DNA from: Geosiphon pyriformis
Taxonomy: Eukaryota; Glomeromycota; Glomeromycetes; Archaeosporales; Geosiphonaceae
Direction: 5' to 3'
Length of the DNA stretch: 64,000 bases
NCBI GenBank assembly: GCA_016748015.1
Contig: JAAOMT010000777.1
Location: forward strand, 441,014 to 505,013
Position numbers and translations under genes: made by a program. The notes below the pieces were generated by a model, which worked only from the letters and a program-made list of their open reading frames with translations, was not told where the DNA came from and searched no databases. Positions within the stretch are counted from its first letter, which is position 1. Each line of letters begins with the position of its first letter. Positions 1,949 to 63,315 of this stretch are shown piece after piece.

Positions 1949-2111
1949 ACAAAACTGTATACAATACAATATATTTCTAATTTCTTGAAGGATATTTATT
2001 AGGCTGTTACATAATTAACTTGATAAGCTTTGAAAACATGATCACTTAAAAGAGGTATTAGAGAGTTAATAATAGGTAATAGTTGTGATTTTATTAACAG
2101 ATTTATATTTT

Positions 2112-2897: not shown

Positions 2898-2936
2898 TGC
2901 ATGTCTATATATATTACATATCAAATTCTATGACTT

Positions 2937-3245
2937 ATGATGATCAGAACATTTTTTAAAAAACTACAGTTGACTTTTACTCCAATATCCCTAACATTGT
3001 GCAAAGTATTTTATATTGATATTCTAATTAATATAGGTGTTGCTGTGTTTGGAGAGCTTAACAACATGACATTGTGCTATCTTCTATGCAATTATGCAAG
3101 TATGCGAAGAATCAAATTGACAGCTTTTATTATTGATCATCAGTTGGGAGTAAGAGGCAAAAAGTGTCACAGATGTATTATCAAAATTAGGGTTTTTTTT
3201 ACTGAGAATTTGTCATTTGTATTTAGAATCCTACAGTTGGATTAA
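2937..3245 (+). CDS. Conserved small frame between Y and the transposase
   Basis: This is an open frame of 102 codons upstream of the transposase on the same strand, containing LTFTPISLTLCKVF, FGELNNMTLCYLL and DHQLGVRGKKCHRC. The equivalent stretch in copy 3 is open over 91 codons (63484-63759) and keeps most residues, while copy 2 has two stops. It also overlaps the divergent promoter region of Y, so nucleotide conservation could reflect regulation rather than protein. No family is recognised. Confidence 0.35.
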   Translation: MMIRTFFKKLQLTFTPISLTLCKVFYIDILINIGVAVFGELNNMTLCYLLCNYASMRRIKLTAFIIDHQLGVRGKKCHRCIIKIRVFFTENLSFVFRILQLD

Positions 3246-3413
3246 AATCTTCATTTTTATAATTTGGCCACTTTTTATAATCTGAGGCACCTCATATGAC
3301 ATAAGACACCTCACATGTCTAATTAGATATAAGACAAAATAATATTTGAGACATAACAGATACATCAATGCATTATAAAAGCAAAATGCAATAAAAAGTG
3401 TGTTCTTATTAAC

Positions 3414-4972: not shown

Positions 4973-5034
4973 AATATATATAATTGATTATTATATTATG
5001 CATGTGATATATAGATCATGTGATAAGATATTAA

Positions 5035-12069: not shown

Positions 12070-12938
12070 GCAGGCTGGTTTTTAGTAAGATAGATTGGTG
12101 TGGTTGCAATTTTTTCTTTTGTTTCTGGTTTTCCAAATTCAATTTCTTCCTGGTCATTCTCACTAGGCAGGGGAATGCTAAGAGCATAGCATTCTGGACA
12201 CCATTTGTCATCACAAGGCATGATGTATTCTTTACACAATTGAATGTTCATTTGCTCTAATCATTGAATTTGAGCTTCTTGGGTCGAGTATGTGTGGCTT
12301 GCAATTTGGTGGTAGGTTTCTACTTTATTTTCATAATCAAATCCAGCTAATTCCATGGTATACTCAATGTATTCAGCTTCTTTCATTTGGCGGACATCTT
12401 CTTGTGTGGCTCCATTGATCAATGCCATTGCTAGGTCAAAAATCATTTCAGCATCATGAGGGTAGTAGTAAAGTTTATTGAGAGTACTGTTGTATGCTGC
12501 ATCAAATGGTGTTCTTCTTCTGACTTTTTCCGAAATTGATAGAGCATATTGACAGGTTTGATCACATACTTCTCCTCTTATTGCAACATCAATCCAGTTG
12601 TATTCTTCTGGTAGCATATCTCCACATGCAAGGCAAGATGTGTTGTCCCATTTTCCACTTCTTTTTGGAGATTCAAATCATTCTCTATGGCATGCTTTGC
12701 AAAAGTAACAGGTACAAGTTTCATATTCTTCTTCTGGAGAAATACATGCTTTTATTGATAAAAGTTTCTTGTTGCAATCTTTGCATTTAAGTGGAATATA
12801 GGGTGGTTGTTTCCATGGTTTTGGTGTAGAATATCTAACTTTCTTCCATCCTCTTGATTCTTTAAAAATCTCCTGTTCTGTTTCTTCAGCCCAATTGGAT
12901 GTTGATTCAAGAGCCATGTAGGTTTCAGTAAGTGGCAT
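12070..12938 (-). pseudogene. Cys-rich region between protease and dUTPase, element A
   Basis: In one frame with the protease, the segment shows KCKDCNKKL, then CTCYFCKACHRE, a TGA at 12678, CLACGDMLPEE and CDQTCQYALS. About 110 helical residues follow (12261-12617) and then LCKEYIMPCDDKWCPECYAL. The spacing of CxxC pairs resembles zinc ribbon or treble-clef units. The same order of Cys pairs occurs in elements C and D. The function is unknown; nucleic-acid or protein binding is a guess. Ty3/Gypsy Pol proteins normally have no such insert. Confidence 0.75.
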
Positions 12939-20279: not shown

Positions 20280-21798
20280 TTACAACTGTTTTTTCTCTTC
20301 TTGAACTTTGAGAACAGTATTATGAATTAATGTTCTCAAAGTTTTAAAAAAGTCTAAATCAACTTTTTCACTATACTGCTCTTTACAATAGCACAACATA
20401 TCTTTAAGTGCAATTTTACCTTGATATATAGATAGCAAAAGCAAAAGTTCATCTTTATTTTCACTTTTTAAATCTTCATTTGCATTAGAATTTTCACTAT
20501 ATTTGTTGTTAATAAGATCCACAATTTTATCTTTTGAGGCATAAGTGAATAATAATTCAAACTTGTCAATATTAATGAAGTCTATTGTCAATAGCTTGTC
20601 AATATCAACATGCTCAATAAAAACTTGTATTTTTTATAGGAGTTCTTGTTCAATATCTAATGGATAGGCTGGCATTTGACTATTATTCAGAATTTCTATA
20701 TGATGCCAACAGTTTTGAATTGTAGTTGTTATTACTGCTGACCATGTATCAATTAGAAAGTCAACCATATCCTTTAATATTACTGTTAATATTGGAATCT
20801 TGCCATCATACTGATTAATAAGATGGAAAAGAAACAACTTTTGGTATTGTGCCTTAAAGGATGCAATAATTCTTGCATCTAATGGTTGCAAATAGAATGT
20901 TGTATTGGATGGTAGGTATCTAATCATAATATTAGATAATATGGAAAGTTCTCTACCATGGGAATCAGCATTATTAAGCAATAGCAAAATTTTTTTTTCT
21001 TGTGATGTATTTCTTCATTTAATAAATTAAGCCATTCACTAAAAATATCAGTTTGTATCTATGCTTTTGTATTGTAATAATAAGTGATTGGAAGTACATT
21101 CATATTAATATTGTGAAAACATCATGGCTTTGTGGTTTTACCAATAATTAAAAGCTGCAACTTGATGCTGCTTGTTGCATTACAAGCAAGAAGTATGGTA
21201 ATTCGACTCTTATTATGCTTGGTGCCAAAGTTGCATTTGGTGGTATTCTAAAAAATAATGCTGTCTTATTAGTATTGTAAACATCATTTAGATCATATTT
21301 GCTAATAATCTCATGCAGTTTCTCATATTCCTTTGGTAAAATTTCCAAAAGGACACTGTTTGCTTCACCATGCATCTTAATGTGATGCAAATTATGATGT
21401 TTTTTGAACTTTTCTAACCAATTATCTGATGCTTTAAAGTTATTTTCTTCTGAAAACTTTTCAGCAAACTTGAGGGCTTTCTTTTGTAAAATTTTTCCAG
21501 TAAGAATGCAGTTGGTAGCTAGTGCTTCAAGCATCTATTCTTTTAGTGCATTATTTATCTTCGGAAATATCTTTTTCATGTCCTTTGTTAATTGATTAGA
21601 GTTGCCAGATATATTCTTTTCAATCCATCAGTCTGATTTTGCAAGTATTTTTGTTACAGTAGAGTGGTCAATTTTTAGATTAAATATTTTGATAAGTCTA
21701 TTTACTGAGTAGTTAGGATGCTTTAGTTTGTACTGGCAGAGAGTCTTTTTAGTCTTCAAAGAGATTACTGCTCACTTTTGGTTTGCATTTTTTGGCAT
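20280..21798 (-). pseudogene. pogo/Tigger-type transposase, copy 2 (broken)
   Basis: The expected start MPKNANQK is present as an ATG at 21798, followed by a TGA after eight codons. The helix-turn-helix (HPNYSVNRLIKIFNLK) and the second DNA-binding stretch follow. The first catalytic Asp is Asn (VYNTNKTALFFRIP near 21265) and the second is Asn (LLLLNNADSHGREL near 20975). The third is kept (LQPLDARIIASFK near 20880). About 24 bases are missing near 21215 relative to copy 3 (the KRDKS-side linker). Stops also lie near 21630, 21535 and 20634. The reading ends at a TAA at 20280, slightly earlier than copy 1. Confidence 0.85.
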
Positions 21799-25863: not shown

Positions 25864-27789
25864 CTACACACTTATATGAACAAAAGCCATATTACCAACA
25901 CCTGCATAAAACAAATAATGCTTATGATACCCAAAATTGACACCAAGTGCATTAGCAACACCCAACAACTTAGTCACCCCAGCCAAAAGCCATGTAGAAA
26001 AACCAGAAACAGCAACAGGAATAGAACCATCATGTGGAATCAACTTATTCTTCTCCATAATGGCCTGGTGTTTCACACGGACCAGCCAGATACTATCACA
26101 AAATGCAAGACAAAACTCATGCACAAAATTCATAATATTAATCACTGCCACCTTAGAATCTTTGTAAACAGAAACAGACTCGCAATATCAATCACTGAAA
26201 ACAAAACTCTTACACAGGGCCATACTGACAGTCACATCTGAAATGCAAGTCAACAACAACTGTGATACACACAAAAAAGAACAAAACAGACCAGAACGCA
26301 CCTCCCAGGCAGCTGCATAAGTGTTTAACAAAACAGCACGATTATCAGTGTTAGAAGAGCAAAAAAAAACATAGTCTGAAATCTCAATCTCACCATAGAA
26401 CAAACAAACTACACTGGGATAATCCCTATCATACAGACGCTTTCGCACAGCAACAGGAAAGTGATGATGAAAGGCTTTCATGAAATATGTATGAAAGCCA
26501 GCCATTTGAATACTAGTAAAACCAATCGTCATATAAAAATCCAGGTGCCACACCAGAGAAGACCTCAACCAGTTAATATCAACATGCAAACAACCTGGAA
26601 CAACTCAGAAACCAAAACCAATCTCCCAATGCACGCAATGAATTGACCTGAATATGCTACAAACAAAATGCCTCAAATTACCAGAAACCACATCAATACC
26701 AGTCTTCAAAAACCTCTCACTGACCAAGTGGGGCAGGTGCCAGGCAGAAAAAGCAGCATTCTTAGCCAGCGCATCAGCACGCTCATTGTCTGAAACACCC
26801 AAATGGCTCTTAACCTTAATCCAATTAACATCCAAATTTTTGTGACAAATGACATTGGTGATGTGACAATGCTCAATCCAACAACAATTCTTAAAATCAG
26901 GGCCAACCAATAAAGACTCCAACCTGCAAGCATCTATAGCCATCTGGCTGTCCAAGAACAAGTCAACCAAACGAAAAGAAGGAACACACTTAAGAGCTAA
27001 AGCAATGGCCTACAACTCCACCAAAATAGAAGAAACCAAACCAGAAATCCCTACACCCAGACCTGAATCAATGTCCTCAAAGAAAACTGCCATATCAGCC
27101 AATATGTCAACAGTGCCCAAGTTACTCAGAGATCTATCTGTGTACACAAAGAGGTGGGTGGCACCAACATTCAACAGATCATTACAAATAACACCAAAAC
27201 CAAGAGACTGACGGATGTCAGAAGAGCCACAAACACCCTCATAAAAAGAACGATCAGAAGGAGAAGCTACACCACCAAGAAAATGTACAGAGAGATCAAA
27301 CCAGAAGGGGACTGGGCCACAGGGGTCCAGTCTTTTCCAATGCTTGAAAGTCTTCCAATCAAAAACAATGCCATTACGGTCACAAAGCTGTTCTACAAAA
27401 GCAATACCATAACACTTGAGGAAAGAGACACATTTGAAGAAAATCATCTCACCAAGAACTAAAGACATAGAAGTACCACTCCGAAGACAAAAAGCACTGG
27501 CCAGAGAGCCCTCCAAAGACAAATCACACCCAGAAAAAATACAAACCACACTTGCTAAAAAGTTGTTTGAAGGGCTGACTCTAACATGAACTAGAAACAA
27601 CAAAGGGTAATGAGAACGCCAGCTAAAAACCTGAAAATCATGAGCCTTATGAGAGAACAAGCGACCCAAAACACCAAACAAATTCGCAAAAGTAATGACA
27701 AAAGCCAACTTGCTTTCAGTCTGAATCTGCTCAAAAGTCTTTAAATTGTACAAAGAAGAATGATGAAGTGCATCATTGGGAAAGTCCAA
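25864..27789 (-). pseudogene. LINE ORF2, RNase H and C-terminal extension
   Basis: This lies in frame with the RT part. RNase H motifs: YTDRSLSNLGTVD (TDG expected, Gly now Arg), Glu in SSILVEL (stop just after), Asp in LFLDSQMAIDACRLESLL and NERADALAKNAA. About 330 more residues follow, with a Cys/His cluster that has partly decayed (CLFYGEIEISDYVFFC; CxxC and His expected from its shape). The end is GVGNMAFVHISV and TAG at 25864. Stops at 27010, 26605, 26188 and 26151 divide it. The extension is also present in the fragment at 33460-35094, so it belongs to the family. Its role is unknown. Confidence 0.75.
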
Positions 27790-27834
27790 AGGCAGCCCAA
27801 ATTTAGACTTCAGGCCTTTGCAAATCAGAGTGTC

Positions 27835-29125
27835 TCATTTATTACACACACTAAGAGGAATATAACTGAACTGAGTTCTGTAGCTGACAATAAGAAAGAG
27901 AACTGAAAACACCAAATAAGCAAACTGTTTATCTGAAACAACTTTCTTTAGAATGAGATTGGTGAAAAACCAAACATCCGAATGTGTCTTAACCAAGCTG
28001 GGCTTCGAAAGACCATTAGAAAATAAAAAAATCTCTAGATAATAATGAGGTTCACTCCTTTTGGTGATGGAGATTGGCAAACCACAGATGGTCAAATAAG
28101 GAGCAGTGACTTGACAGTTGATGGGAATGGTCACAGTCTTATCATTGTTTATCGAAATGTTATTTAAATAAAAGAAATCACTAGCAACATTGAGAATGTG
28201 TTGTGTAGCAGCCTGGCTGCTACCAACCCAGATAATATCATCAATAAAAGCACTAGCGGCCAGAAATGATGTCAGCCCAGCCTAAGATTCTATCTGGCCA
28301 GTCTTAGAAATGAAATGAGAAATCAATCTGTAACCACAAATGCTCTCCTGTCTCTTAACCTCACACAAGAGTGGGTCATAAAATATGTACCAAAGAAGTG
28401 GTGAAAAAACCTTTCCTTGATCCAATCTATCGTGAACCTGATATCCATCAGTCAAACCAAAATTCATTATCACTTTGTTTGTGCAACCATTATGAATATG
28501 ACCAAAAAATCTGATAAATTTGTCACACATTTTGATCCTGATCAAACTCCTCTTGAGATGCTTCCAATCTACAGAATTATATGTTTTGCGCATATTTTGT
28601 AAAACCAGTCACAACTCTTGGTTTTTTTCCAAAGTATTTTTGATCACCAAACCAATAGCAAAGATAGGTGACTGTGTAGACATATCTTTTAGGACAGAGA
28701 AATTGTCCTTATGAAGAACATCAAAAGTGCTACAAGCCAAAGAGATCTGGTCTAAAAAAATCTTAGAAAGAACTTTGCAAGCTGTCTCAATCAAAGCAAT
28801 AGGGTGGATATTTGTAAAAATCTCCTTCCACTCGTAAGGTTTAGATCAAAACCCATGCTTCCTTCCAAGATCCAGGCACTGACTCACAATCCAAACAAAA
28901 ATTCAAGAGCACCAAAAGCATATCCAATACTAACTTGTCACAGCATTTCCAAAGTTCATTAGTGATACCAGAAAGACCAGCCGCTTTCCCATCAGGCAAA
29001 TTTGAAATAACACCAAACATCTTATCAAAACCGATTGAATACATCACATTAGAGAAGGCACTATCAAAGACATAATCCAAAGGCTGAAATTGCCTTGTCC
29101 AGTCATCAGAGATATCAGAAGTCAC
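27835..29125 (-). pseudogene. LINE ORF2, reverse transcriptase (broken)
   Basis: The N-terminal RT part reads NLPDGKAAGLSGITNELWK and LNFCLDCESVPGSWKEAWV (28841-29125). A frameshift near 28700 follows. Next come YNSVDWKHLKRSL (Asp of the first catalytic box, palm A), GLTDGYQVHDRLDQGKVFSPLLW and YDPLLCEV. The catalytic FIDD box lies at about 28235-28246 (AFIDDIIWVGS), intact. The thumb part (27835-28134) begins MTIPINCQVTAPYLTICGLP. Target-primed reverse transcription would be its job. Stops at 28282 and 27835. Confidence 0.85.
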
Positions 29126-29140
29126 TACATGCCTCCTGGT

Positions 29141-29641
29141 TCAACCCTCCATGATTTCATCCATCTTAGATTTAACCAACTCAGGCTCCAAGACCAACTC
29201 CTCATTATTCACCAAATGATCCAACACTACTTTATGAAAAAGACGCTCCAAAACACTCCTAATGATATGATCTTTATTCATTTCAAAACTTTCCATCCTC
29301 CTTTTAATAGCCTGCCTCATATAAGATTCCTCAGCATGCTTAGATTCCAACAACTTAGAAGAGTGGTAAGACTTCTTCGCCTTAGCCAGCTCAGAACAGA
29401 TCGCATTAAAACTAGAGCCAGAAAGAAACAGAGATCTCACTGGTAAAGTGTCCACAGAATCAAGCCTGTACCAAGTATTCAACAACAAAGCAAAATCTCT
29501 GCCAGAAACCAACCAAGAAGCCTTCACCAGTTTAGACACTAGTAGCTCCAGCTTATGAAACCAGGAAAACACCTTATTAAAAACACAATTGAAACCCTTA
29601 AACCATTTTTTCTTGAATGTTCCACCAGCTGAAAGAACCAT
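29141..29641 (-). pseudogene. LINE ORF2, endonuclease-RT linker
   Basis: This is an open stretch in frame with both neighbours, bounded by stops at 29642 and 29141. It is Lys/Ser-rich and mostly helical (WFHKLELLVSKLVKASWLVS, AKKSYHSSKLLESKHAEESY). No separate domain is recognised; linkers of this kind join the endonuclease and RT in LINE ORF2 proteins. Confidence 0.6.
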
Positions 29642-29659
29642 AATCTTATGAACAATGCT

Positions 29660-30547
29660 CTACATCACATCCAAATCAAAAAACTGCTTAGCTGCAACAA
29701 ACTCATCCGAGAACATAATAGCATTAGCAGCCATAGCATTCATGAACTCAGACCACTTAACCTCATTGGCATTTTTGATATCATACTTCCAACGATCTCT
29801 ATTTGCTTGTTTGTGCAGTGAGTTTAACTGGACATTGAGCAGGCCTCCCAATTCCACAGAAACAGACACAGCCTTGTAATTAGTATCAAAATAGTCTTCA
29901 ATACCATCCACATCACAATCCATTACTGCACCAGCCAAATTAGAAGAAATGAGCATGTAGCTAATCGTTTTAGTGATGCCACAAGAATTGCACCAAGTGA
30001 GTGACTTCATGAAGGAGCTTCCCCCCAGAAAGTTAATCAAACCCAAATCGAAACATTTTTTGAAACTTGCATACTTGTAAGAATCATCCTCATTAAAATC
30101 ACCACCAAGAATAACAAAGGAGGACTCATTCACAGTCTTAACAATAAGAGAGTTAATTTTACCAGCCTGAGAAAACCGAACTGCTGAAGATGCACCAGCA
30201 TACAGCCCCAGAATAGACACAGAGAGTTTGTTCTTAAAAAGCAATCTAACCAACAGAAGCTGACCAGGCACCTCTGAAACTTTACACACATGTTTCGCCA
30301 AAGAAGAGTCCAAAATAATTACAACACCAGATCCCATGTGACCAGAATCCAGTTTAGAAGTAAAAATACAAACACCATCAAACTTATCAGCAATTTAAAG
30401 ACAAATTTTTTCCTTCAACTTTGTTTCAGTGACAATAAAAACCAAATTGTTCATATCTTTATGTCAATAAACAATGTCTGCCTGCTTTGTACAAATGTTT
30501 ATATCTCTGACATTGCACATGGCAATCTTCCAAATTAAGTGAGTCAT
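29660..30547 (-). pseudogene. LINE ORF2 start: apurinic-type endonuclease
   Basis: ORF2 begins at an ATG (30547-30545) that overlaps the ORF1 stop as ATGA. Catalytic residues of the exonuclease-endonuclease-phosphatase fold are present: Asn in KIAMCNVRDIN, Glu in FIVTETKL, Asp and Asn in VILGGDFNEDDS, and the SDH-like end DTNYKAVSVSV where His is Tyr. Two early stops (TGA near 30468, TAA near 30398) interrupt before MGSGVVIILDSSLAKHV. The enzyme nicks target DNA to prime reverse transcription. The His-to-Tyr change would impair it. Confidence 0.8.
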
Positions 30548-32526
30548 TGAGATGACATGGGAGCTGACAGACCCAAACCAGAGCACAGAAGATTTAACTT
30601 ATCCAAAACTGAACCAACTGAAGCCTCCAATGCGACCAATTTTATTTTCAAACCATGCACTTTGACAGTAAGAACCTTGGAACTACTAGCATTGAGATCG
30701 ACAACAGCATCAATAGTGATGGGAGGAGTAATATCAGAAGAACTCAAAGCATTGTCCACAATCATATCTGAATCTACTTCAGAACTCAAAGCTGCAGAAA
30801 CAGCAGGAGGGAGGGCCAGAGAAGAAGGAACCAAAGAAACCACACCAAAGGAATCCAACCTGACCAGAATGCCAGAAACACAGTTAGCCAGAAGCTCCAA
30901 AGAGTGTTCCAAAACTGCCAAATGATTATTTAAATGGGAAACAACAAGATGATTAGAGACCGCTAAAGGAGGAACCAAACCAGAATACAAACCAGAACCA
31001 GGAAAACCAGAAGGAGACACACAGAAAGAGGTGCCACTAGCAACTTGGGTCCATGTTTTGCCACCAAACAAAACTGGGCAAGCAATAGGAGCCGACTTCT
31101 TCTTATATATATTAGCCAGACAAACCTAATTCTGATCAGAAACCACCCTTTTTTCACGAACACCAGAACTTCCACCCACAAGACAGTTAATAGTGATATG
31201 ACCAAACTGTTCACACTTAATACAGCTAGCCAAAACAAAACTAGCCCAATGCAAACTAACACCTTTGAAAATTAGAATAGTACTAACAGCAGCCAATCTG
31301 ACATCCTCATTCTCAAAACAAATAATTGCACACTGATTATGGACATATAAACCAGGATTGCAGCCAATAAAACAAGTTCTTCTACCATATAATACCAACA
31401 ATTCTGACAGATCATAGGCTGAAGTACCAACTGAAAGAGTATAGAGCAAAGCCCAATGATGATCTCTTGACGCCCATGTTTGTTTATTATTGACAGTCAG
31501 TGCCACATGAACTAAATCCTTTCCCATAAGAACAGACCACTTAGAAGCAGCCAAACTGGCAACTTCTGATGACTCAAATTCAATCAGGGCCTTTTACCAA
31601 AGACCAATTAATTGCATCTTGATGGAAACAATCTTGCCAAATTTAGAAAAAACAGATTCCACAGCCAACTTTAGAAGATCAACTGAGATCTCCTTAACAA
31701 TCACTTCCTGATTCAAATGAATGTTTGCTTTTTTAAGATCACTATTGACAACAATTTTTTCACAGACTGCCATTTTCCTGGCCTTAATCAAACTAGACTC
31801 ATTTGTGAAAGTTGAATGAATAACACCAGGAAATTTTGAGGAAGTTGAAGCTCCCCCAAAACCATCAATTTTGTAAAATATTTTTTTGATTGAAATGAGC
31901 TTATTACTATTAGTCCTGCCAGGAACAGCTGACAAATTCACATCCAGAGCAAATGATTTTACTGGCCTGAAACTACGACTCTCTAGAACATGTAATTTAG
32001 AAGAGGGCAGCTGATTGGACCCACTGATTTTAGGAGATAGCAACACGGAATCATCGTTGTTATTATTCATAGTAGCAAATAGAGATGCCTTAAGAGATTG
32101 TTCCAACACATATGTCCAAGTACGAGTTTTTCATGGCATAGTCTTATTTATTTCATTGTCTTCACCTGAATCAACATAGCTTGTCTTCTCGGCAATCATG
32201 TTTCCCAAATTCTCAACATCTGAAAGACCACTTACACTACCAGAAATATTACCCACTCTGCTTCCCCAGGATGCAACTGGCTTACCATTGTCACCACCCA
32301 AATCTTCTAAATGTAGAGGATCAGCAGACAACTCAACCAAAACGCCAGCTACAGACTTCTTAGGCTTCTTGTAGGATGCACCACGAGAATAGACTGTATT
32401 AACACACTTGTTTTTAGCACTCTGGCAGGTCCCCAAACCAGCCAAACCCAAACTAGAACCACTAGCAGATGAGCCCACCAGTTCTATCACAACAAATAAA
32501 AGTAAGTTAGAAGAAATAGTTAACAA
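30544..32526 (-). pseudogene. LINE ORF1: RRM-like domain and CCHC knuckle
   Basis: One frame of about 660 codons carries stops at 32131, 31594 and 31126 only. From the N terminus: a Ser/Gly-rich region, then an RRM-like domain (VIVKEISVDLLKLAVESVFS, KFGKIVSIKMQLIGLW, FESSEVASLAASKW). The CCHC knuckle CIKCEQFGHITINC lies near 31205-31245 (C-x2-C-x4-H-x4-C). A long Ser/Leu-rich tail follows and ends APMSSQ with TGA at 30544-30546. ORF1 proteins of this type bind the LINE RNA. The true start is unclear because 32526 is a TTG and the frame may open slightly upstream. Confidence 0.75.
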
Positions 32527-32560
32527 AAATTGAAAGGAAAAGGAAAAGGAAAAGCGATTT

Positions 32561-33459
32561 CTTCAAAATTATCTTTTGCTCTCATTGTGGTCAGGAGATC
32601 AACAAGAGAAAAAAGTTTTTTAATTTTTTTTGCTAATTTTAAACTTTTTTAATTTATATTTTGTTGAATTAAAATAGAGTTTTATTAATATTATTAGATA
32701 AAATTTAAATTATTAAATATTATTTAATAAATAATCTGATTTATATAATATACAGATATAATTAATATATAATAATTAAATCATATAATATTTTAAATTA
32801 TATAATATTTAAAAATTTATTAAAATATGTAGAAATTTATTAAATTTTTGTCCAAGTTTATAAATGATTTTAAATTTTTAAATTTTTTTATTAATATTAA
32901 ATTATATACTAAAACTTTTATATTATTAATTTTTCTTATTATTATACTTTTGGCTATTTTTGTTATTATTACTGTTAATTTTATAATTAATTTTAAGTTG
33001 AATTTTTTAAAATCTTAAATATTTAATTTGGCTGTATTAATTAAATTTATTATTAAACTAATTAATTTTTTGGTTATTTTAGTTACTTTTATTTAACCAA
33101 AAATATATGTAAAAAGTTTAAAATAGTAAAAATTTAATTATTATAGAATATATTATAAAAAAATTTATTAATTTTTTGGTTAATTTGTCTAAAAACTTTG
33201 TTAATTTTAAAATTAAGTATTATTAAAACATTTTTTAAATAATTAAATTATTAAATATTTAATAATATTATAACAAATAAATAATCTTAATATTAAAAAT
33301 AATATAAAAAAAATTAAATTGTTTTTAAGTAAATTTGTTTTTAATAATTAAAATTTAAATAGTTTTATTAATAAACTTAATAAATTAGATTTATTTTTAG
33401 CTTTGTTAATATTTTAATTAATTTAAGTAGTTGGTTACATATAAAAAACATATCCTTTT
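32561..33459. other. AT-rich relic zone with a decayed family-A LTR fragment
   Basis: No gene is seen. Bases 32690-32870 align in order with the family-A LTR (AATAATCTGATTTATATAAT near 32732 against AATAATCTGATTTGTATATT near 17570), so an LTR relic on the plus strand lies here. The block near 32945-33010 (TTGGCTATTTTTGTTATTAT) resembles the plus-strand LINE thumb region, which may be the decayed upstream part of the next LINE fragment. The rest is A/T runs. Confidence 0.45.
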
Positions 33460-43897: not shown

Positions 43898-44596
43898 TTA
43901 AGCTATTTTAACCAGAGGCAGGAATATTGTCTGTGCTATCTTTTTATTTGGCTTTATAATATAGGCTTTTTCTGAGTCATTTTGTAGCATAGCAATGATA
44001 TTTCTTACATATCCTGCATCAATTATTCTTTCCTTGATATTGATTCCTTTTTTTGCTAAGCTATTCCTAGATGCTAGTTGAACCATTGTTGTTGCAGAGA
44101 TTTCTAATGTTATTTTGAGATCAATGCATGTACGTGAATATGGTTCTAATTTGATGGTCTTTTTCTCTAAATATCTCATATCAAACTTTACATCTGTATC
44201 ATGCATATGTTTTGGCATGAGACCTTTATTGTTGTTACTATACCATTTAAGTTCTTGCTTTTTGGAAAGATTAGGAAGTACAATATATGTTTCGGGGTTT
44301 GAATTGGAGTCCAAATCACTATTATTTTCTTTGCCATATTGAGCAGAGCTGGAACCATTGTTTTTGTTATCATCATTGTCAGAGTTTGAATCAGAATTGA
44401 GAATTGATTCCAATTCTGATGTGCAGCTATTGATTGGTTCTTTTTCCTCTGGTATTGTGTAAATCATACATGGTAGAGGATTGTAAATGAGGTCACACTC
44501 ATTACAATATTGAAAGTCACATGGAATTAGGCAGTGTTGACACAGTCGAGTGTTCAGCTGTTCTAAGCATTGCTCTTGCTCTTCCCTTGTGAGCAC
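43898..44596 (-). pseudogene. dUTPase with acidic leader in Gag-Pol of element C
   Basis: The 232-codon frame begins with Cys pairs (RLCQHCLIPCDFQYCNECDL), then an Asp/Asn/Ser-rich leader. dUTPase motif 1 is DTDVKFDMRY, motif 2 VQLASRNSLAKKGI, motif 3 IIDAGYVRNI and motif 4 IKPNKKIAQTIFLPL. Motif 5 falls just past the stop at 43898. The Tyr of motif 3, which stacks on the uracil in known enzymes, is kept. The second acid normally found there (D.DYRG) is Gly. It is open over motifs 1-4, although RT and integrase of the same element are dead. Confidence 0.85.
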
Positions 44597-45130
44597 TAAC
44601 TTTTGGTAGTGTTGGTGAAATTGTTATGGATCCAGAAGGTTTATAACTGGTTCTGGGTCCCAGTTAAGCTCTATGGATTCAAATGAGTTATTTTTGATTG
44701 TTCTTATTTCTTCTAGTGACACTCCTTCGATTTTGGCGAGAGCCATTCACCAAATTTCATCATTATTGTGTGGACAGCCATCCAGATGTTGAACTGTTTG
44801 TCTTCAAGCAGTGTCTATGGGTGTTCTCTTTCTTACCCAGTTGCTTATGAGAATTGTGTACTAACATAATTTGTCGTACATTCTTCCTTTTCCAGGAATG
44901 TTGTTCTATATTCCTTCATTGAGAAAAGTTTCTCCACAAGCCAAGCATAGCTTATTATCCTATTTTCCAACTTGTTTTGGTCTTCCAAAGTGGTCAATAA
45001 GACATGAACAGCAATAGAACTTAGTTGCCATCTGGTATTCCTTATTGTTATTACAGCATGTGCCCATTAATAACAACTTCTTGCCACAATTGACGCATAC
45101 TAGTTTTAGATGGCGATAGTTAGATGATTG
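44597..45130 (-). pseudogene. Cys-rich region of element C
   Basis: The minus strand reads VCVNCGKKLLLMGTCC, FYCCSCLIDHFGRPKQVGK, a TAG and LCLACGETFLNEG. The order and spacing of Cys pairs are the same as in elements A and D. A stretch homologous to the helical linker of element D (DNAWKQALKHLKK) leads to the dUTPase leader. Stops and shifts are present. Confidence 0.7.
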
Positions 45131-47174: not shown

Positions 47175-47374
47175 TCAGTGTTACTCATAGAATATAGAAA
47201 ATATAGTATTATTAGTCAGTAAATATTAGCCAATAGAATGTAGACGTAGTAAATGTGGAATTCCAAGATTCCTCTCAAAGAAATTGCAGAATTCCAGGAA
47301 TTTCAGAATTCTCCGACAAGGAATCACAGGATTTCAGTTGCAAGGAATTGAGGAATTAAGGAATCTTAAATATG

Positions 47375-47382
47375 TATATATA
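47375..47382 (+). promoter_or_regulatory. TATA box in the LTR of element D
   Basis: TATATATA in AATATGTATATATAGCA, about 197 bases into the LTR and directly after the palindrome block. It is present at the same place in the LTRs of B, C and D. Likely transcription start region for the element. Confidence 0.5.
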
Positions 47383-47623
47383 GCAATAATATTAGAAACA
47401 GAAAAGACAGAATTGACACCAAGAATTCTTAGCCTAGTTACCACAATCCTCAAATAAAATAATTATTCATTATATTAAATTCCTTCCTCACTATCAACAC
47501 TTCATGTTGATAGTAACTGATACTTAACCATATTGGAACAATAGCTCTTGATCATGGCTATTGATGGGATACGAATCAGAATTGCCTTGGTTTATTTGCT
47601 TTATTTCATATTCTTTGCTTTTT

Positions 47624-47661
47624 TTCTTTTCTTTTCTTTTCTTTTCTTTTCTTTTCTATCT
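47624..47661. repeat. TTTTC microsatellite in the LTR
   Basis: About seven tandem TTTTC units. The 3-prime LTR of the same element (near 56916-56940) has only two or three, so the array expanded or contracted after insertion. Confidence 0.8.
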
Positions 47662-48015
47662 TTGTTTTGTTGTTGTATACTAATTAATTAAGAATTAAAA
47701 GCACTGAGTTATTGACATCACGGATAGTCTGGTAAAAGACCTAGAAATAAGAGTAGAATTTTATATATTATTGGATAGCTTACCAGAAAAGCACGACTAC
47801 CAGAATAAATCCAGCCTCCACGCTGAGAAAAAAATTGGACGGAATTGTGATTCTGAAGACTATTACAATTACAATTGAATCTCTGTTCATTATACAAAGA
47901 ACTCAACCCAAACCTTCAGATTACCAATACCAACATCAACAGAAATCAATAGCTTTTGAGCACCAAGTTATGGGTTTGTTATTTATTCTCACACCAAAAA
48001 TAATCACCTGTAATA

Positions 48016-48749: not shown

Positions 48750-49040
48750 GAATTTAATTACCAAAAACTAATCTCAGAAAACCCGAACATTCAAACTCAG
48801 CAACATTTAGAAAATCCAGAAATTGAAACTCCAAATATTCAAACCCCACCAAATCAAAGAAATCAAAACCCTGATTTAATTCATCAGCAAAACCTACCTC
48901 CAGTTATCATTATCAATCAACCACCAATTGAGCTGATTGGTGAGCCAATTCAACCACCTCAAGTACCACCTCAACAACTGTTACCTCTTCAACAACTTCA
49001 GCAACAGCCATTTCAACAGCCCCAGCAATCTATAGTACTG

Positions 49041-49664
49041 ATGGTCTATGCACCAATCGCCAAATTAGAAAAATTCACTGGTGAAAAAAATGATGCTCAA
49101 GCTTGGTTGAATGACATTGCCAAAGCAATCATGGCAAACAATTGGAATGACAACAGAGCTTTTCAGGCAATCTCATATTTTCTCCAAAATACCGTAAATT
49201 TGTGGTATCAAAGCTTAGCTGCAAAACCTCAAACATTTGATGCATTTAAGCAGGAGTTCCTAAGATATTTCAGTAATAATAACTGTATCAACTATTTGGT
49301 AAATACTTTTATTACCATTAAACAAAGGGACACTGAAGCCATTACCATGTACTTGGGACAATTCCATAGATGCCTGCACCAGATCCAAGCTATCAACACT
49401 GATTATTTCACAGTGGCCCAAATTTTGAATCAATTTATCAGAGGCTTATGCAGTAGTATTCTCCAGTGCGTACATTTACTACACTCAGTAGATTTACAAA
49501 CAGCCATCACTAATGCCAGAGATTTTGAAGCAGCCGAACTCAAAGCTAACCATGCCCAAGCCATTAATCTAGTAATGAATAGATCATCTGAATTGGATTC
49601 TAGATTAAAACAATTCAGTGATTCCATCAATCAAAAATTAGAGAGATACTTAGCTAACAACTGA
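49041..49664 (+). pseudogene. Gag capsid (retrotransposon gag domain) of element D
   Basis: Open over 207 codons: APIAKLEKFTGEKNDAQAWL, YFLQNTVNLWYQSLAAKPQT, FDAFKQEFLRYFSNNN, then TMYLGQFHRCLHQIQAINTD and ILNQFIRGLCSSIL. This is the classic helical retrotransposon-gag pattern (W, aromatic, F..F and R.L). It is in frame with the N-terminal part and with pol. Gag assembles the particle that packages the RNA. Confidence 0.85.
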
Positions 49665-49778: not shown

Positions 49779-49820
49779 TGCCACTATTGTGGTAGACAAG
49801 GACACATACAAAACAATTGC
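49779..49820 (+). other. CCHC zinc knuckle (nucleocapsid) of element D
   Basis: CHYCGRQGHIQNNC, the perfect C-x2-C-x4-H-x4-C spacing, in the gag-pol frame. It binds the element RNA in relatives. Confidence 0.9.
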
Positions 49821-50348: not shown

Positions 50349-50771
50349 TTGGCTGCTATCTTTCCATTCAAATTCGAGGAAACAACTGCAATGCCATTAT
50401 TTAATGGAGCCACTCTTGAAGCCAAACCAATTACCATGATGTACACTAATGCTAAAGTCAAGGGACAATCCATCAAATTGATCTTTGACAGCAGTTCAGC
50501 AGACAGCATCATCACACAACAACTTATGGATTAATTAGGTCGCCGAGTTAATCAAGCTGCCAGCGCCAGAATCATCACAGCCAATGGAGTGACCAAAACT
50601 CCAATCAGTAAAATCAACAACTTCTCTTTCAAAGTCAATGACATCGTAACTCCCATTAAAGTTTTAGTGATGGAAGCCACTCAATACCAAGCTTTTGTTG
50701 GTAATAACTGGCTATCCAAAGTCAATGCAACGTTAGATTGGAACACTCAGGAACTCCAGCTAACATATTAG
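50349..50771 (+). pseudogene. Retropepsin-like protease of element D
   Basis: Residues PLFNGATLEAKPITMMYTNA, then KLIFDSSSADSIITQQLMD with the catalytic Asp at 50487-50489, a TAA, then ITANGVTKTPISKINNFSFK and VLVMEATQYQAFVGNNWLSK. The triad reads DSS where the family norm is DSG or DTG. About 150 residues overall including the stop, a fair size for one protease monomer. Confidence 0.85.
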
Positions 50772-51500
50772 GACCAACACATATATGTACTGGCTACGTG
50801 TGGTCACTTTAAGACTCCTCCAAAAGAGAAACTATTAATTGAACTGGAAGAAGAGAAAAAGAAACCTATCTGGGAAGCTTACCAAGTCTTCTGGGCCAAT
50901 GCTGACCACAATGAACTACCACCCATACTATCATGAGACAACAAGAGAAAGAAGAAAGAAGAAAAACTTACCTGGAAGCCAAACCTAGGAGCATGGAGTA
51001 AAGACAACTTAAGCAAACCAACCACCAAGTAAACCTGGGAAGAAAAAAGAAAAGAGAAAGAAAAGGAAGATGACCAATCACCAAGCATCTATTCAGTTCA
51101 TACTCCATATTCTACACCACAGCAACCAAGATACTGTTGACCCAAACTAGTATGTGTCAGTTGTGGCAAAAAACTGTCAACAATGAATACATGCTGTAGT
51201 AAGGACGAAGAATAGACAACAGCAACCAAGTACTACTGTTGCCCATGTGTCCTTGAACATGATAGATGGCTGCCAAAAGTAGGAAAATGGGACAGTACTT
51301 TGTGTTTAGCTTGTGGAGATACTCTCTTAGATGAAGGGATATGGAAAGACATTCCTGGAAGAAAAAGAGCATGTGACAAGACATGCCAATACACAATCCT
51401 AATCAATAACTGGATATGAAAGGGAACTTCTATTGACAATGCCTGGAAACAAGCATTAAAACACCTGAAAAAATACCCATATGACAAAGATGAAATCTGG
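50772..51500 (+). pseudogene. Cys-rich region between protease and dUTPase, element D
   Basis: A Lys/Glu-rich linker (to about 51130) is followed by LVCVSCGKKLSTMNTCC, a TAG, KYYCCPCVLEHDRW, KWDSTLCLACGDTLLDEGIW and RACDKTCQYTI. There are six Cys pairs or doublets over about 90 residues, in the same order as elements A and C. Next comes a helical stretch (DNAWKQALKHLKKYPYDKDE) that resembles FDAAYNSTLNKLYYYPHDAE of element A. This looks like one or two zinc ribbon units plus a helical domain. Confidence 0.75.
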
Positions 51501-51503
51501 AGA

Positions 51504-52514
51504 ATGACATATGCTATGTCAGAAAGTGCTACAACAGAGGAGCTAAGAAAAATTAAAAACAACCCACTATTCCTACCTGAGCCTAAATATGTCCAAACTT
51601 TTGATGCCTTTAGCAACATCGAAGATGATCCAGAGAAATTCCATGAGCACTACCAACGATTAGCACCCACGAGAGAGAAACAAGAGCAATGCTTGGAAGA
51701 GATAAACACCCGACTATGTAACCACTGTTTGATCTTATGTGACTTCCAGTATTGTGATGAGTATGACCTCATCTACAATCCACCACCACACATGATCTAC
51801 ATGATCCCAGAAAAAGAAAAACCAATCAGCAGCTGCGCATCAGAATCAAAATTACTGATCAATTGTACTTCAAACTCTAACGACAATGATAATAACAATG
51901 GTTTGAGCTCCAGTCAAGATGGCAATGACAACGACAATGGTATAAACTCAGATTCAAACTCCAATTCAGACTCTGAACAATATATCACACTCTTTGACCT
52001 TACCAAAGACCAAGAACTTAAATGGTTTAGTGATAATGACAAAGGTATCATGCCAGAATGAGTGCATGATACTGATGCAGAGTTTGATCTGAAGTATCCA
52101 GGAAAAGATGCCATCAAATTGGAACCACATTCATGCATCTGCCTTGATTTGAAAATAGTGCTGGAAATTCTGGCAACAACAATGGTTCAATTAGCATCTA
52201 GGAGTAATTTAGCGAAAAAAGGGATTAATATAAGAGAAGGAATAATTGACATGGGATATGTAAGAAATATCATTGCTATGCTACAAAATGACTCAGAAAA
52301 AGCCTATATAATAAAGCCCAACAAAAAGATAGCACAGGCAATATTTCTGCCTCTGGTTAGAGTAGCTCAGTTAGTATCAGTGGAAAAAAGAGAGGAATTA
52401 GGAATAACAGTGAGAGGAATACAGGGATTTGGATCAACAGGTAGAATAGATGTGCCAGTCAACATGGCAGAAGAAAAAATTATTGGCCAAGGAAAAATTA
52501 TCTCAACCAGTTAA
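51504..52514 (+). pseudogene. dUTPase with leader in Gag-Pol of element D
   Basis: The leader has RLCNHCLILCDFQYCDEYDL and an Asp/Asn/Ser-rich run. One TGA (52039-52041) precedes the domain. Motif 1 is DTDAEFDLKYPGK, motif 2 VQLASRSNLAKKGI, motif 3 GIIDMGYVRNI, motif 4 IKPNKKIAQAIFLPL and motif 5 RGIQGFGSTGRIDVPVN. All five motifs are in one open frame (52062-52514). Motif 5 FGSTG closes over the active site of a neighbouring subunit in trimeric dUTPases. This is the cleanest dUTPase copy in the window. Motif 3 lacks the usual second Asp. Confidence 0.9.
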
Positions 52515-52860: not shown

Positions 52861-53700
52861 AACAGTTAGAACAAATAAACATGGGAAACTTAAATCCACT
52901 CCAATATATGCAACTTAAGATGTTGCTCAACAATTTCAACAACATCTTTGCCAGTGAAAATGAGTTTGGCTGAACTGACATCATTCAGCATCAGATCAAG
53001 ACTGGAGATGCAATGCCAATTAAATAAAGAGCATACAGAGTACCACCAACTAGTCACAAGATCATTCATCAAGAGATAAACCAAATGCTTGACAATGAAC
53101 TAATTTAGCCATCAATGAGCCCATGGTCATTACCAGTGGTACTTGTTCAGAAAAAAAATAGGAAAATCCACTTTTGTGTGGATTATAAAAAACTCAATGG
53201 AGTAATTCATGGAAATAGCTACTTCACTCCATGGATTCAAAAATTATTCAATGCTTTTGGTGGAAACAAATGGTTTTCAATATTAGACCTGGACAGTAGT
53301 TACTGGCAAGTAGCCATGGATCCAGCTGACAAAGAGAAAACAGTATTCACCACAAGGGAAGGGAATTTCGAATTTGAAGTAATGCCATTCAGCTTAACCA
53401 ATGCCTCAGCAACTTTCCAACAGCTAATGGAAATCGTTTATACTGGCTTATTGTGAAAATCAGTAGTTGTATACTTGGACGACACCAATGTATTCTCAAA
53501 AACATTTGATAATCATCTTTATCATCTTCAACAAGTGTTCAAAAGACTAAGAAAAGCAGGACTAAAGTTAAATACAACAAAGTGCTTTTTTGGCAAGACA
53601 GAACTAAAATTCTTGAGACACATAGTCAGCAAAAATGGCATCAAAACGGATTCAGAGAAAATAGAGATAATAAAGAACTCTCTAGTGCTAACCAATATAA
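52861..53700 (+). pseudogene. Reverse transcriptase of element D (catalytic box intact)
   Basis: The pre-RT helix region (QLEQINMGNLNPLQYMQLKM) is followed by PPTSHKIIHQEINQMLDNEL, KKNRKIHFCVDYKKLNG, KWFSILDLDSSYWQVAMDPA, FEFEVMPFSLTNASATFQQL and the catalytic box VVYLDDTNVFSKTF (YLDD at 53472-53483). Stops at 52973, 53026, 53107 and 53454. It is the only copy in the window with both catalytic Asp of the YxDD box. In frame with dUTPase and RNase H. Confidence 0.9.
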
Positions 53701-54143
53701 CAGAGCTGAAATCATTCTTGGGATTTGCCAGCTACTATCGGTGTTTTATTAAGAACTTTTCCAAGATAGCGCAGCCACTCAACCAACTGCAAACCAAGAA
53801 TACAAAATATGAATGGACAGAAAATCAACAAGAAGCTTTTGATATTCTGAAAAGAAAACTCATTCAAGCTCCAATACTGATCTATCCAGATCACAGCAAA
53901 CCATTCATTATCACCACTAATGCATCTGGCCAAGCATTGGGAGCAGTATTATTTCAGAGAGGGCCAGACAGCAGAGAACATCCAGTAGCATATGTCAGCA
54001 GAGGTTTAATGCCAGCCAAAAAGAACTATGGAACACTGGAACAAGAACACTTAGCAATATACTGGGCAGTCATGAAATGGAAAGAATACTTGAGCCAGAA
54101 ATTTAAAGTATACACAGATCACAAAGGATTAACATCACTTTAA
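53701..54143 (+). pseudogene. RNase H and connection domain of element D
   Basis: Connection: ELKSFLGFASYYRCFIKNFS, KYEWTENQQEAFDILKRKL. RNase H: first acid position reads TTNASGQALGAVLFQR, so the catalytic Asp is Asn; the Glu is in GTLEQEHLAIYWAVMKW and the second Asp in VYTDHKGLTSL. The frame is open from 53475 to 54143. Confidence 0.85.
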
Positions 54144-54337
54144 AAACAAGAATTTGGAGATAGAAGACAGTCAAAATGGAAAATAGCACTCACACCATAT
54201 AATTATACTATACATTATAAAAAGAGAAAAGATAATGGAAATGCTGATGGTTTGTCATAAATGAAACAAATCTAAGAACATTTCAACCCAAAAATATAAC
54301 AAAACCAGAACAATACCAACAAAAAATATAACAAAAG
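54144..54337 (+). pseudogene. RNase H-integrase junction of element D
   Basis: Coding sequence continues (RWKIALTPYNYTIHYKKRK-like, NADGLS) with stops, and the frame changes by one position before 54338. No separate feature. Confidence 0.5.
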
Positions 54338-55321
54338 ATGAACATACAAAAATACCAACAACTGCAACATTATATAAACACTCAACAGTTCAAGAAAAAT
54401 TTATCTCAAACAGAACAAAAGAGTATCAAACAACAATCAAAATATTTTATTACTCACCAAAATATACTGTATCAGAAAAATAGAAGAAATCTAGAGCAAC
54501 CAACCAGAGTAATTACAGAGCCAGAAAAAGAGACAATATTATTTAACATGCACTCAAATTCAACAGCAAGACACTTTCACAAAGAAGCAACCATAAAAAG
54601 AACCAGAAAAAAATACTATTGGCCATCAATGTATCCGGACATCATCTAATATGTTCAAAATTGTGATGCTTGTCAGCAAAGAAGAGGTACGAAATCCAGT
54701 GAACCATTAAGACCAATCAAAGTGAAACAACCATTTGACTGTGTTGGAATTGATTTAGTCAGACCATTAACAATCACCAGCAGAGGAAACAGATACATAG
54801 CAGTAGTCATAGACTATTTTACTAAATGGCCAGAGGTGAAAGCAATTCAAAGAGCAAATGCAGAATTCATTGCCAAATTCATTTATCAAGATTTAATTTG
54901 TCGACACAGATGTCCAAAGGAATTATTATCAGACCAAGGAACTTATTTTGTGAACAGAACATTAACAGAATTGAGCCAAGGATTCGGAATTAAGAGACCA
55001 CTATTATCATCATACCATCCACAAACCAATGAATTAGTCGAAAGATTCAACAGAATATTGTGTAAAGCAATAGCTAAACTCAGCCAAGAAAACCAGAACA
55101 ATTGGAATTTGTTGATACCATCAGTACTATTTGCTTATTGGACAATGAAGCAAGATACTACACAAGCAATGCCATTTGAATTAGTATATAGTAAAATAGC
55201 AACACTACCAGTAGAAATAGAAGTCAGCACATACTCAACCAAACCAATAACAGAAGAGAATTTCAAAAACACATTGTTAAGAAAAACATATGACTTAATA
55301 GAAACATTAGAAAACAAATGA
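54338..55321 (+). pseudogene. Integrase of element D (catalytic triad intact)
   Basis: The zinc-binding N-terminus has NMHSNSTARHFHKEATIKRT and, after a TAA at 54647, QNCDACQQRRG with both Cys. The core has Asp in VVIDYFTKWPEVKAIQRAN, Asp in LLSDQGTYFVNRTL and Glu in HPQTNELVERFNRILCKAI. The open core runs 54722-55321 (199 codons). It would insert the cDNA. The 4-bp duplications seen around copies of this family are probably its footprint. Confidence 0.9.
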
Positions 55322-56415: not shown

Positions 56416-57309
56416 TGTTACTCATAAAATATAGGAAATATAGTATTATTAGTCAGTAGATATTAGCCAATGATATGTAGACGTAGTAAATGTGAAATTC
56501 CAAGATTTCTCTCAAAGAAATTGCAGGATTCCAGGAATTTCAAAATTCTCCAACAAGAAATTGCAGGATTCCAGAATCCCAGGATTCCTCTCATCAGGAA
56601 TCACAAGATTCCAGGAATTCCAGGATTCCTGTTGTAAGGAATTAAGGAATTGAGGAATCTCAAATATGTATATATAGCAGTAGCATTAAAAGCAGAAAAG
56701 ACAGAATTGACACCAAGAATTCTTAGCCTAGTTACCACAATCCTTAAATAAAATAATTATTCACTATATTAAATTTCTTCCTCACTATCAACACTTCATG
56801 TTGATAGTAACTGATACTTAACTATATTGGAACAATAGCTCTTGATTACGGCTATTGATGAGATACGAATCAGAATCACCTTGGCTTATTTGCTTTATTT
56901 CATATTTTTTGCTTTCTTTCTTTTCTTTTTTTTCTATTTTTGTTTTGTTGTTGTATACTAATTGATTAAGGATTAAAAGTGTTGAGTTATTGATGTCACG
57001 GATAGCCTGGTAAAAGACCCAGAAATAAGGGTAGAATTTTATATATTATTGGATAGCTTACCAGAAGGGCACAACTGCCAGAATAAATCTGGCCTTCATG
57101 CTGAGAAAGAAATTGAACAGAATTGTGATTCTGAAGACTATTACAATTATAATTGAATCTCTGTTCATTATACAAAGAACTCAATCCAAACCTTCAGATA
57201 TCAAAACCTTCAGATTACCAATACCAACATCAACAGAAATCAATAGCTTTTGAGCACCAAGTTATGGGTTTGTTATTTATTCTCACACCAGAAATAATCA
57301 TCTGTAACA
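56416..57309 (+). repeat. 3-prime LTR of element D
   Basis: It runs TGTTACTCATAAAATATAGG to ATCATCTGTAACA, 894 bp. The palindrome block is at 56490-56650. It is bounded by CCAG, the target duplication, after which the gag of element C resumes. Confidence 0.9.
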
Positions 57310-61755: not shown

Positions 61756-63315
61756 TTATTTAAAAAAGCTATCTATTTGCAACTGTTTTTTCTCTTCTTG
61801 AACTTTGAGAACAGCATTACAAATTAATGTTCTCAAAGTTTTAAAAAAGTCTGAATCAATTTTTTCACTATACTGCTCTTTACAATAGTGCAATGTATTT
61901 TCAAATGCAATTTTATCTTAATGTGTAAATAACAAAGACAAAAGTTCATCTTCATTTTTACTTTCTAAATTTTCATTTGCATTAGAATTTCCACTATACT
62001 TGTTGTTAATAAGATCCACAATTTCATCTTCTAAGGCATAAGTGAATAATGGTTCAAACTTGTCAATATTAATGAAGTCTATTGCTAATAGCTTGTTAAT
62101 ATTAATATGCTCAATAAAAACTTGTATTTCTTGTAGGAGTTCTTGTTCAATATCTAATGGATAGGCTGGTATTTGACTATTATTTAGAATTTCTATATGA
62201 TGCCAACAGTTTTGAATTGTAGTTGTTATTATCACTGACCACACATAAATTAGAAAGTCAACTGCATTATTTAATGTTACTGTTGATATTGAAATCTTGC
62301 CATTATACTGATTAATAAGATGAAAAAGAAACAACTTTTGGTATTGTGCCTTAAAGAATGCAATAATTCTTGCATTTAATAGTTACAAATAAAATGTTGT
62401 ATTGGATGGTAGGTATCTAATCATAATATTAGATAATATGGAAGGTTTTCTATCATGGAGACCAGCATTATCAAGCAATAGCAAAATCTTTTTTTTCTTG
62501 TGACCCATTTTTTTATTTAATAAATTAAGCCATTTACTAAAAATATCGGTTTACATCCATGCTTTTGTATTGTAATAATAAGTAATTGGAAGTGCATTCA
62601 TATTAATATTGTGAAAACATCATGGCTTTGCAGCTTTGTCAATAATTAAAGGCTGTAACTTGATGCTATCTGTTGTATTACAAGCAAAAAATATGGTAAT
62701 TTGACTCTTATTATGCTTGGTGCCAAAGATAGATCTTGTTGTCAAAGTTGTATTTGGTGGTATTCTAAAGAATAATACTGTCTTATCAGTATTGTAAACA
62801 TTATTTAGATCATATTTCCTGATAATCTCATGCAGTTTTTCTTATTCCTCTGGTAAAATTTTCAAAGAAGCACTGTTTGCTTTATTATACATCTTAATGT
62901 GGTGCAAATTATGATGTTTCTTGAACTTTTCTAACCAACCATTTAATGTTTTAAAGTTATTTTCTTCCAGAAACTTTTTAGCAAACTTGAAAGCTTTCAT
63001 TTGTAAAATTTTTCCAGTAAAAATACAGTTGGTAGCTAGTGCTCCAAGTATCCATTCTTCTAGTATATTATTTATCTTTGGAAACATCTTTTTCCTGTTC
63101 TTTGTCAATTGACCAAAGTTGTCAGATATATTCTTTTCAATCCATTGATCTGATTTTACAAGTATCTTTGTTACAGTAGAGCAGTCAATTTTTAGATTAA
63201 ATATTTTGATAAGTTTATTTGCTGAGTAGTTAGAATGTTTTAGTTTGTACTGACAGAGAGCCTTTTTAGTTTTCAAGGAGATTGCTGCTCACTTTTGGTT
63301 TACATTTTTTGGCAT
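61756..63315 (-). pseudogene. pogo/Tigger-type transposase, copy 3 (broken)
   Basis: It starts MPKNVNQK at an ATG (63315), with a TGA after codon 8. The stretch 62842-63276 is open for 144 codons: HTH (HSNYSANKLIKIFNLK), KFAKKFLEENNFKTLNGWLE, HHNLHHIKM. Unlike copies 1 and 2 it keeps the first two catalytic Asp (VYNTDKTVLFF near 62780; LLLLDNAGLHD near 62470), but the third is Asn (LLNARIIAFFK near 62370). The C-terminal part is open at 61918-62334. Several stops. Confidence 0.85.

Follow-up and report, generated by a model that had tools for sequence, protein, structure and literature searches.

What is a long cysteine-rich stretch doing between the protease (PR) and the dUTPase of a fungal retrotransposon? 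The question is raised by a 64,000-nucleotide stretch of DNA from Geosiphon pyriformis (hereafter the window; the source genome comprises 124.7 Mb on 406 contigs), in which three Ty3/Gypsy elements, called A, C, and D, carry copies of a Cys-rich module of about 215 residues at this place in Pol. A preliminary description, made from the letters of the window alone, had noted a common series of Cys pairs in the three elements and had proposed that they mark an undescribed domain. We find that the module is genuine and, in the reading that we favor, a domain under selection in one lineage of Ty3/Gypsy Pol. Its presence, its position in an open frame, the conservation of twelve paired Cys residues, a low ratio of nonsynonymous to synonymous substitution (dN/dS), and the existence of two related elements without the module were all computed directly.

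Place of the module in Pol

Element D is a Ty3/Gypsy retrotransposon with two long terminal repeats (LTRs; Table 1). The order Gag-PR-reverse transcriptase (RT)-RNase H-integrase (IN) was established with Pfam from Gag, the RT end, RNase H, and IN on element D and from PR and RT on L007, another locus of the same genome. Pol of both also includes a dUTPase (PF00692; E values of 6.2e-14 in element D and 8.7e-25 in L007). All three window copies are broken. Seven in-frame stops are found from the PR end to the dUTPase of element D, and a Tyr replaces one of the twelve core Cys residues in each copy. The L007 locus retains a single open frame of 1132 amino acids, in which Pfam places PR at residues 58-147, dUTPase at 501-632, and RT at 866-1025, and in which the module, by limits that we set, occupies residues 237-460. 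The unusual PR-zinc-dUTPase-RT polyprotein that had been proposed is therefore present in an intact frame.

The common Cys series was likewise borne out, as a tblastn search with the L007 module finds all three window copies (E values of 6e-41 to 4e-49). In element D, the frame from 50280 reads CVSCGKKL, YCCPC, LCLACGDT, CDKTCQY, and later RLCNHCLILCDFQYC. A CC doublet formerly counted in this series is missing both in L007 and in P0160, a database protein labeled 'ena', and is not a conserved part of it. The range originally given for the module (50772..51500) begins at the PR end, spans the PR-module linker, and ends before the last Cys cluster (51717-51767).

When genomic loci were ranked by their dUTPase, the module was found upstream in all of the best 8 of 150, including L007 and one locus (L004) that belongs to the family of copy A. 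Searches of the Geosiphon genome with three module families each produced at least 150 scored candidates. These lists give lower bounds on copy number, and at least two places are common to two of them. Most of the genomic module places listed contain stops.

Conservation of paired cysteines

The sequences compared numbered 120, namely 112 of 210 database proteins (at least 110 residues aligned, with an E value of 1e-10 or better), seven modules from loci and the window, and P0160. Fifty-one representatives with less than 70% identity were aligned, and the Cys residues of P0160, the most distant relative, were counted over the ungapped rows of 50. From 5 to 23 rows are gapped or hold an X at the core Cys columns, and many gene models begin late or skip pieces. 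The twelve core Cys residues form six pairs, at P0160 positions 16/19, 44/47, 68/71, 91/95, 202/205, and 214/217, and are kept in 24/27, 24/28, 32/33, 27/32, 43/45, 39/43, 37/40, 36/38, 35/36, 34/35, 34/36, and 32/33 rows, respectively (397 of 426 cells in total). Among the 29 losses, 23 are from Cys to Tyr, a single G-to-A change that fits the decay of dead copies. The unpaired Cys residues of P0160, used as controls, are kept in 0/29 (position 49), 0/37 (119), 0/35 (129), 4/38 (184), and 24/35 (209) rows. The last of these, a fifth Cys within the final Cys cluster, shows partial conservation (69%), with mostly Ser in its place otherwise.

Across the 51 representatives, the 17 columns with a Cys majority have a mean conservation of 0.81, compared with 0.65 for the other 202 columns (Mann-Whitney p 7e-4, which is indicative at most because the sequences are related). 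Some non-Cys columns match the best Cys columns. The expectation that Cys conservation would stand out from its background thus held, in that the paired residues exceed most of their neighbors and the unpaired Cys of P0160. Because the twelve paired residues are kept relative to the control Cys, it is likely that they constitute three Cys4 sets of zinc ligands and that the module is a zinc-binding domain, a prediction drawn from sequence conservation. Which pairs would share one zinc ion we infer from their order. In the aligned real copies, about 20 residues lie between the first two fingers, and the third Cys4 set is found about 105 residues farther along.

Some gene models bring the two fingers closer together, an artifact of public annotation as tested for P0185 alone. 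A 103-residue piece of this model spans 345 nucleotides at its own genomic place, with one TGA and a match that is otherwise 100%, and 12 codons are skipped. Models of these elements in Geosiphon leave out short segments, probably as false introns, and P0126, P0168, and P0172 look like P0185 by eye. Another Geosiphon model, P0156 (1771 amino acids), is a single protein with Gag, dUTPase, and a PF00075 RNase H.

Selection on the module

Pairwise dN/dS values were calculated by the Nei-Gojobori method. For 30 copies picked by module similarity, the values are 0.35 for the module, 0.55 for dUTPase, 0.58 for PR, 0.65 for the region after dUTPase, 0.67 for the start of RT, and 0.61 and 0.76 for the linkers. 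Because picking copies by their module favors a low module value, a second set of 22 copies was ranked by other parts of the element: 20 by how well they match P0024 in and beyond the dUTPase, together with L001 and L007. The module again gives 0.35 (subsample range 0.32-0.40), followed by dUTPase with 0.44 (0.38-0.50), the region after dUTPase with 0.49, and RT with 0.56 (0.41-0.70; one copy is without RT cover and two have partial cover), and the linkers give 0.72 and 0.56 (0.38-0.89). Thirteen of the 22 copies also belong to the 30-copy set, and so the two sets are not independent. Among the compared regions, it is the module that gives the lowest point value in both sets, with ranges that touch or overlap, and a dN/dS below 1, which had been named as a sign of function, is found in each.

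Relatives and origin

A search with residues 230-640 of L007 returned 60 proteins, 56 of which are named as Geosiphon. Named protein relatives are from G. pyriformis in 30 of 30 cases in one search and, in another, in 120 of 120 among the matches listed of 227. The P0160 protein has the order PR-module-dUTPase-RT, all twelve Cys residues, and a module identity of 36-47%, and its host could be a relative of Geosiphon. Two further proteins, P0199 ('ena') and P0200 ('jgi'), show the order PR-dUTPase-RT but lack the module; their PR and dUTPase are separated by 114 and 152 residues that include 2 and 4 Cys, respectively. The distance from dUTPase to RT is 468-473 residues in module-bearing elements versus 328-334 in these two. 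A stretch of about 120 residues after dUTPase (about 640-760 in L007) is common to the module-bearing elements and is largely missing in P0199 and P0200.

In a tree of the dUTPase-to-RT region with nine rows and P0210 as outgroup, the module-bearing set lies on one side of a branch with support values of 80/91 (83/92 in another run). Because of this placement, one origin of the module is possible, as is loss of the module in P0199 and P0200. The outgroup, a Ty3 polyprotein labeled 'ena', resembles the module elements in having a long Cys-rich stretch between PR and dUTPase (627 residues with 19 Cys, at about 660-1280), but its repeats differ from the module by eye. The idea that this stretch is a distant homolog was not supported, given an hhalign probability of 0.4% against the first 145 module residues. 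The PR-dUTPase junction may have gained Cys-rich inserts more than once.

Family and fold searches

Searches of the module against Pfam, NCBIfam, PHROGs, and PDB sequences yielded no convincing match. Scattered weak matches in NCBIfam (best NF011897, E 1.5e-3, 3 of 24 members) and in PHROGs (best phrog_32654, with no known function, E 3.7e-3, 5 of 24 members) were judged to be chance. For cross-brace fingers, there is one sub-threshold match to zf-RING_5 (E 0.77), and RING and FYVE chains appear low in the fold list. None of eight aligned modules has the CCHC spacing C-x2-C-x4-H-x4-C, there is no zf-CCHC match on the L007 module, and the integrase H2C2 family (PF17921), which element D carries elsewhere in its own integrase, does not match the module. 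A profile match to a known Gag or Pol domain had been named as evidence against the proposal, but in the scanned pieces of the module no such profile attains its cut-off, and we rejected a Gag nucleocapsid (NC) knuckle, an integrase H2C2 domain, or another known Pol domain as identities for the module. Scans of viral contigs and prokaryote genomes revealed no relative of the module, and no description of it was found in the excerpts of open-access literature covered by our search.

In the first of the AlphaFold models of the P0160 module, ten-residue means of the predicted local distance difference test are 82-92 for residues 91-150, with lower values beyond. In a model of modest quality, CxxC ... 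CxxC (CxxxC the second time) is placed twice at a helix start, and helices follow, an arrangement suggestive of a tandem pair of treble-clef fingers with additional helices. Weak fold neighbors include LIM, Rim2, PHD-like, ZZ, and HNH fingers. The fold searches gave no neighbor with an E value of 1e-3 or less, which does not by itself establish a new fold. The notion of an undescribed domain survives in the sense that no family model recognizes the module, but the AlphaFold model points to known types of treble-clef finger rather than to a new fold.

Proposed role and rival explanations

The role usually ascribed to retroelement dUTPase is to exclude uracil from cDNA. In our preferred reading, the module is an accessory domain whose three Cys4 sites would bind zinc, laid out as a tandem pair of treble-clef-like fingers followed by a helical spacer and a small C-terminal finger. 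Most likely it is made within Gag-Pol and remains joined to dUTPase, and perhaps to RT, through a flexible linker, and any release by PR is conjectural. The zinc-stabilized module could then dock or tether the dUTPase/RT unit to a partner, and because the charge of the module is neutral to acidic, this partner is as likely to be a protein as RNA. Such a tether would keep the dUTP-removing enzyme where reverse transcription happens, comparable to the possible role of nucleocapsid in the betaretroviral NC-dUTPase. We lean toward this entire reading, a selected three-zinc accessory Pol domain that docks or tethers dUTPase, as a somewhat probable one. A bolder extension seems conceivable but doubtful to us: that the module represents an undescribed three-zinc family that entered a dUTPase-bearing Ty3 lineage a single time, ahead of the split into the present families, with probably hundreds of copies in Geosiphon and at least one other ('ena') element, and that it acts with dUTPase as one reverse-transcription unit, forming a separately evolved, Pol-borne counterpart of the betaretroviral NC-dUTPase.

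Perhaps the module instead contacts a host factor or chromatin, much as LIM or PHD-like fingers do, and thereby steers the pre-integration complex or helps the element escape silencing, in which case it would not be specifically linked to dUTPase. The weak fold neighbors do include fingers of the protein-interaction type (LIM, PHD-like, ZZ, and Rim2), the module is not basic, and a flexible linker rich in Asn, Asp, and Ser parts it from dUTPase in L059 and L060. However, no match to such a family reaches its cut-off, and the module sits beside dUTPase in all eight of the dUTPase-ranked loci and in P0160, an association unnecessary for a targeting domain that acts freely. We consider this role unlikely, and quite improbable the proposal that the module is a second nucleocapsid, which would bind element RNA or cDNA directly and serve as a chaperone in reverse transcription. 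Betaretroviral dUTPase does carry a nucleocapsid with zinc fingers and chaperone activity (PMC4531489, in excerpt), and the bdelloid element Juno has an extra zinc knuckle after its dUTPase (PMC5408684, in excerpt). Yet the Gag of element D already includes a CCHC knuckle, as identified by eye, and the module is neutral to acidic and is without the CCHC pattern.

A diverged LIM domain, or a member of some other named treble-clef family, acquired from a host gene, is a candidate that we regard as very unlikely. LIM (PF00412) is the Pfam family matched by the largest number of module members (3 of 24, best E 8e-4), LIM chains appear among the fold neighbors, and treble-clef fingers of this kind also have tandem CxxC pairs. 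However, the three matches score only 20.0, 12.3, and 10.2 bits against a gathering score of 22.9 bits, and each aligns about the second half of the LIM profile with the first finger of the module. The LIM motif has two zinc fingers that are two residues apart, with His or Asp among the ligands, whereas the module has no His among its conserved ligands, a much wider finger gap in real copies, and a distant third Cys4 set; the gene model with a shorter gap is the one that skips genomic codons. Based on the sub-threshold scores, the gap, and the all-Cys ligand set, we do not accept the LIM identity. There is also the prospect that the module is a passenger, a captured and functionless stretch that hitch-hikes in Pol and is conserved through recent common descent. 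This would suit the near restriction of named protein relatives to one genome and the stops in most of the genomic copies listed, but dN/dS is low in two differently ranked (albeit overlapping) sets, and families at 36-56% identity retain the core Cys even though four of the five control Cys have disappeared. We judge a passenger to be highly improbable.

Comparison with known systems

Fungal Ty3/Gypsy elements bearing dUTPase are known, and PosPlaTy3-5 of Postia has its dUTPase between PR and RT (PMC2864245). These LTR elements resemble those with the module in having a dUTPase, but the position of this domain varies among them, and the excerpted account mentions no zinc module (PMC2864245). 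For Entomophthora muscae, another excerpted report describes an enrichment of dUTPase domains along with further domains of retroelements (PMC11105155). The betaretroviral NC-dUTPase (MMTV p30, M-PMV) is similar in that a zinc-finger segment is covalently joined on the N-terminal side of dUTPase. It differs in that the segment is the nucleocapsid of Gag, joined by frameshift, and the dUTPase precedes PR (PMC4531489). The module is a 12-Cys domain in Pol after PR, in frame with PR and dUTPase, and the Gag of element D has its own CCHC knuckle. Juno of bdelloid rotifers shares a dUTPase between PR and RT with an adjoining extra zinc motif, but this is a single knuckle after dUTPase rather than three sites before it (PMC5408684). 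The original claim that Ty3/Gypsy Pol does not normally have such a region is qualified by the zinc motifs adjoining retroelement dUTPase that are already known in other forms (PMC4531489, PMC5408684).

Retroelement Pol is among the best-charted of polyproteins, and a conserved domain of this size that Pfam, NCBIfam, and PHROGs do not recognize is worth recording. It may be a third, separate case of a zinc segment beside dUTPase, after betaretroviruses and Juno, and it raises the testable idea that retroelement dUTPase often works tethered rather than free. The module would also serve as an annotation marker for the lineage among early-diverging fungi, whose open reading frames of this kind are now called 'hypothetical protein'.

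Other features of the window

Table 1. Features of element D and module copies in the window (positions in nucleotides from the first letter of the window)
Feature	Position	Strand	Basis
5' LTR of element D	47179..48013	+	pairs with 56416-57307; 88.6% and 91% identity in two main pieces
gag open frame of element D (capsid)	48750..49661	+	Pfam Retrotrans_gag 5.2e-10, Ty3_capsid 6.2e-9
CCHC zinc knuckle of Gag (C-x2-C-x4-H-x4-C), distinct from module	49779..49820	+	by eye; pattern per PMC2864245 (excerpt)
PR region of element D, stop at end	50391..50771	+	translation; colinear with Pfam PR of L007; limits approximate
PR-module linker, charged, variable	50772..51122	+	translation
Module of element D, whole	~51123..51770	+	tblastn match 51135-51761
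Module, first predicted Cys4 set (CxxC...CxxC)	51153..51248	+	Cys codons 51153, 51162, 51237, 51240, 51246 (core pair 51237 and 51246); conservation
Module, second predicted Cys4 set (CLxCG...CDxxCQY)	51303..51386	+	Cys codons 51303, 51312, 51372, 51384; conservation
Module, predicted helical stretch	51387..51716	+	AlphaFold models of P0160 module
Module, third predicted Cys4 set (LCxxC...CxxC), last position Tyr in element D	51717..51767	+	Cys codons 51717, 51726, 51753; conservation
dUTPase of element D	52062..52514	+	Pfam PF00692 E 6.2e-14
RT end and RNase H of element D	53457..54143	+	Pfam RT_RNaseH_2 3.5e-34, RVT_1 8.6e-10
Integrase of element D (H2C2 and core)	54332..55321	+	Pfam Integrase_H2C2 6.4e-10 (at 54332-54649), rve 4.1e-9
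3' LTR of element D	56416..57307	+	pairs with 5' LTR
Module copy in element C	44495..45106	-	tblastn 41% identity to L007 module, E 6e-41
Module copy in element A (different family)	12189..12791	-	tblastn 38% identity, E 8e-45; 36-40% identity to seven other aligned modules

The window also holds copies of a Tc5-type DNA transposon, which we take to be of the pogo type, at 20637-21534 and 62845-63288 (both on the minus strand) and as inverted copies near 1663-4991 (HTH_Tnp_Tc5 and DDE_1 matches); its pieces are 87-94% alike within the window. A decayed element at 26191-32562 (minus strand) includes several abutting open stretches, seven of nine scanned being without a retroelement Pfam match, and carries an RNase H remnant (PF00075, E 6e-6) and a weak RT remnant (E 6e-3).
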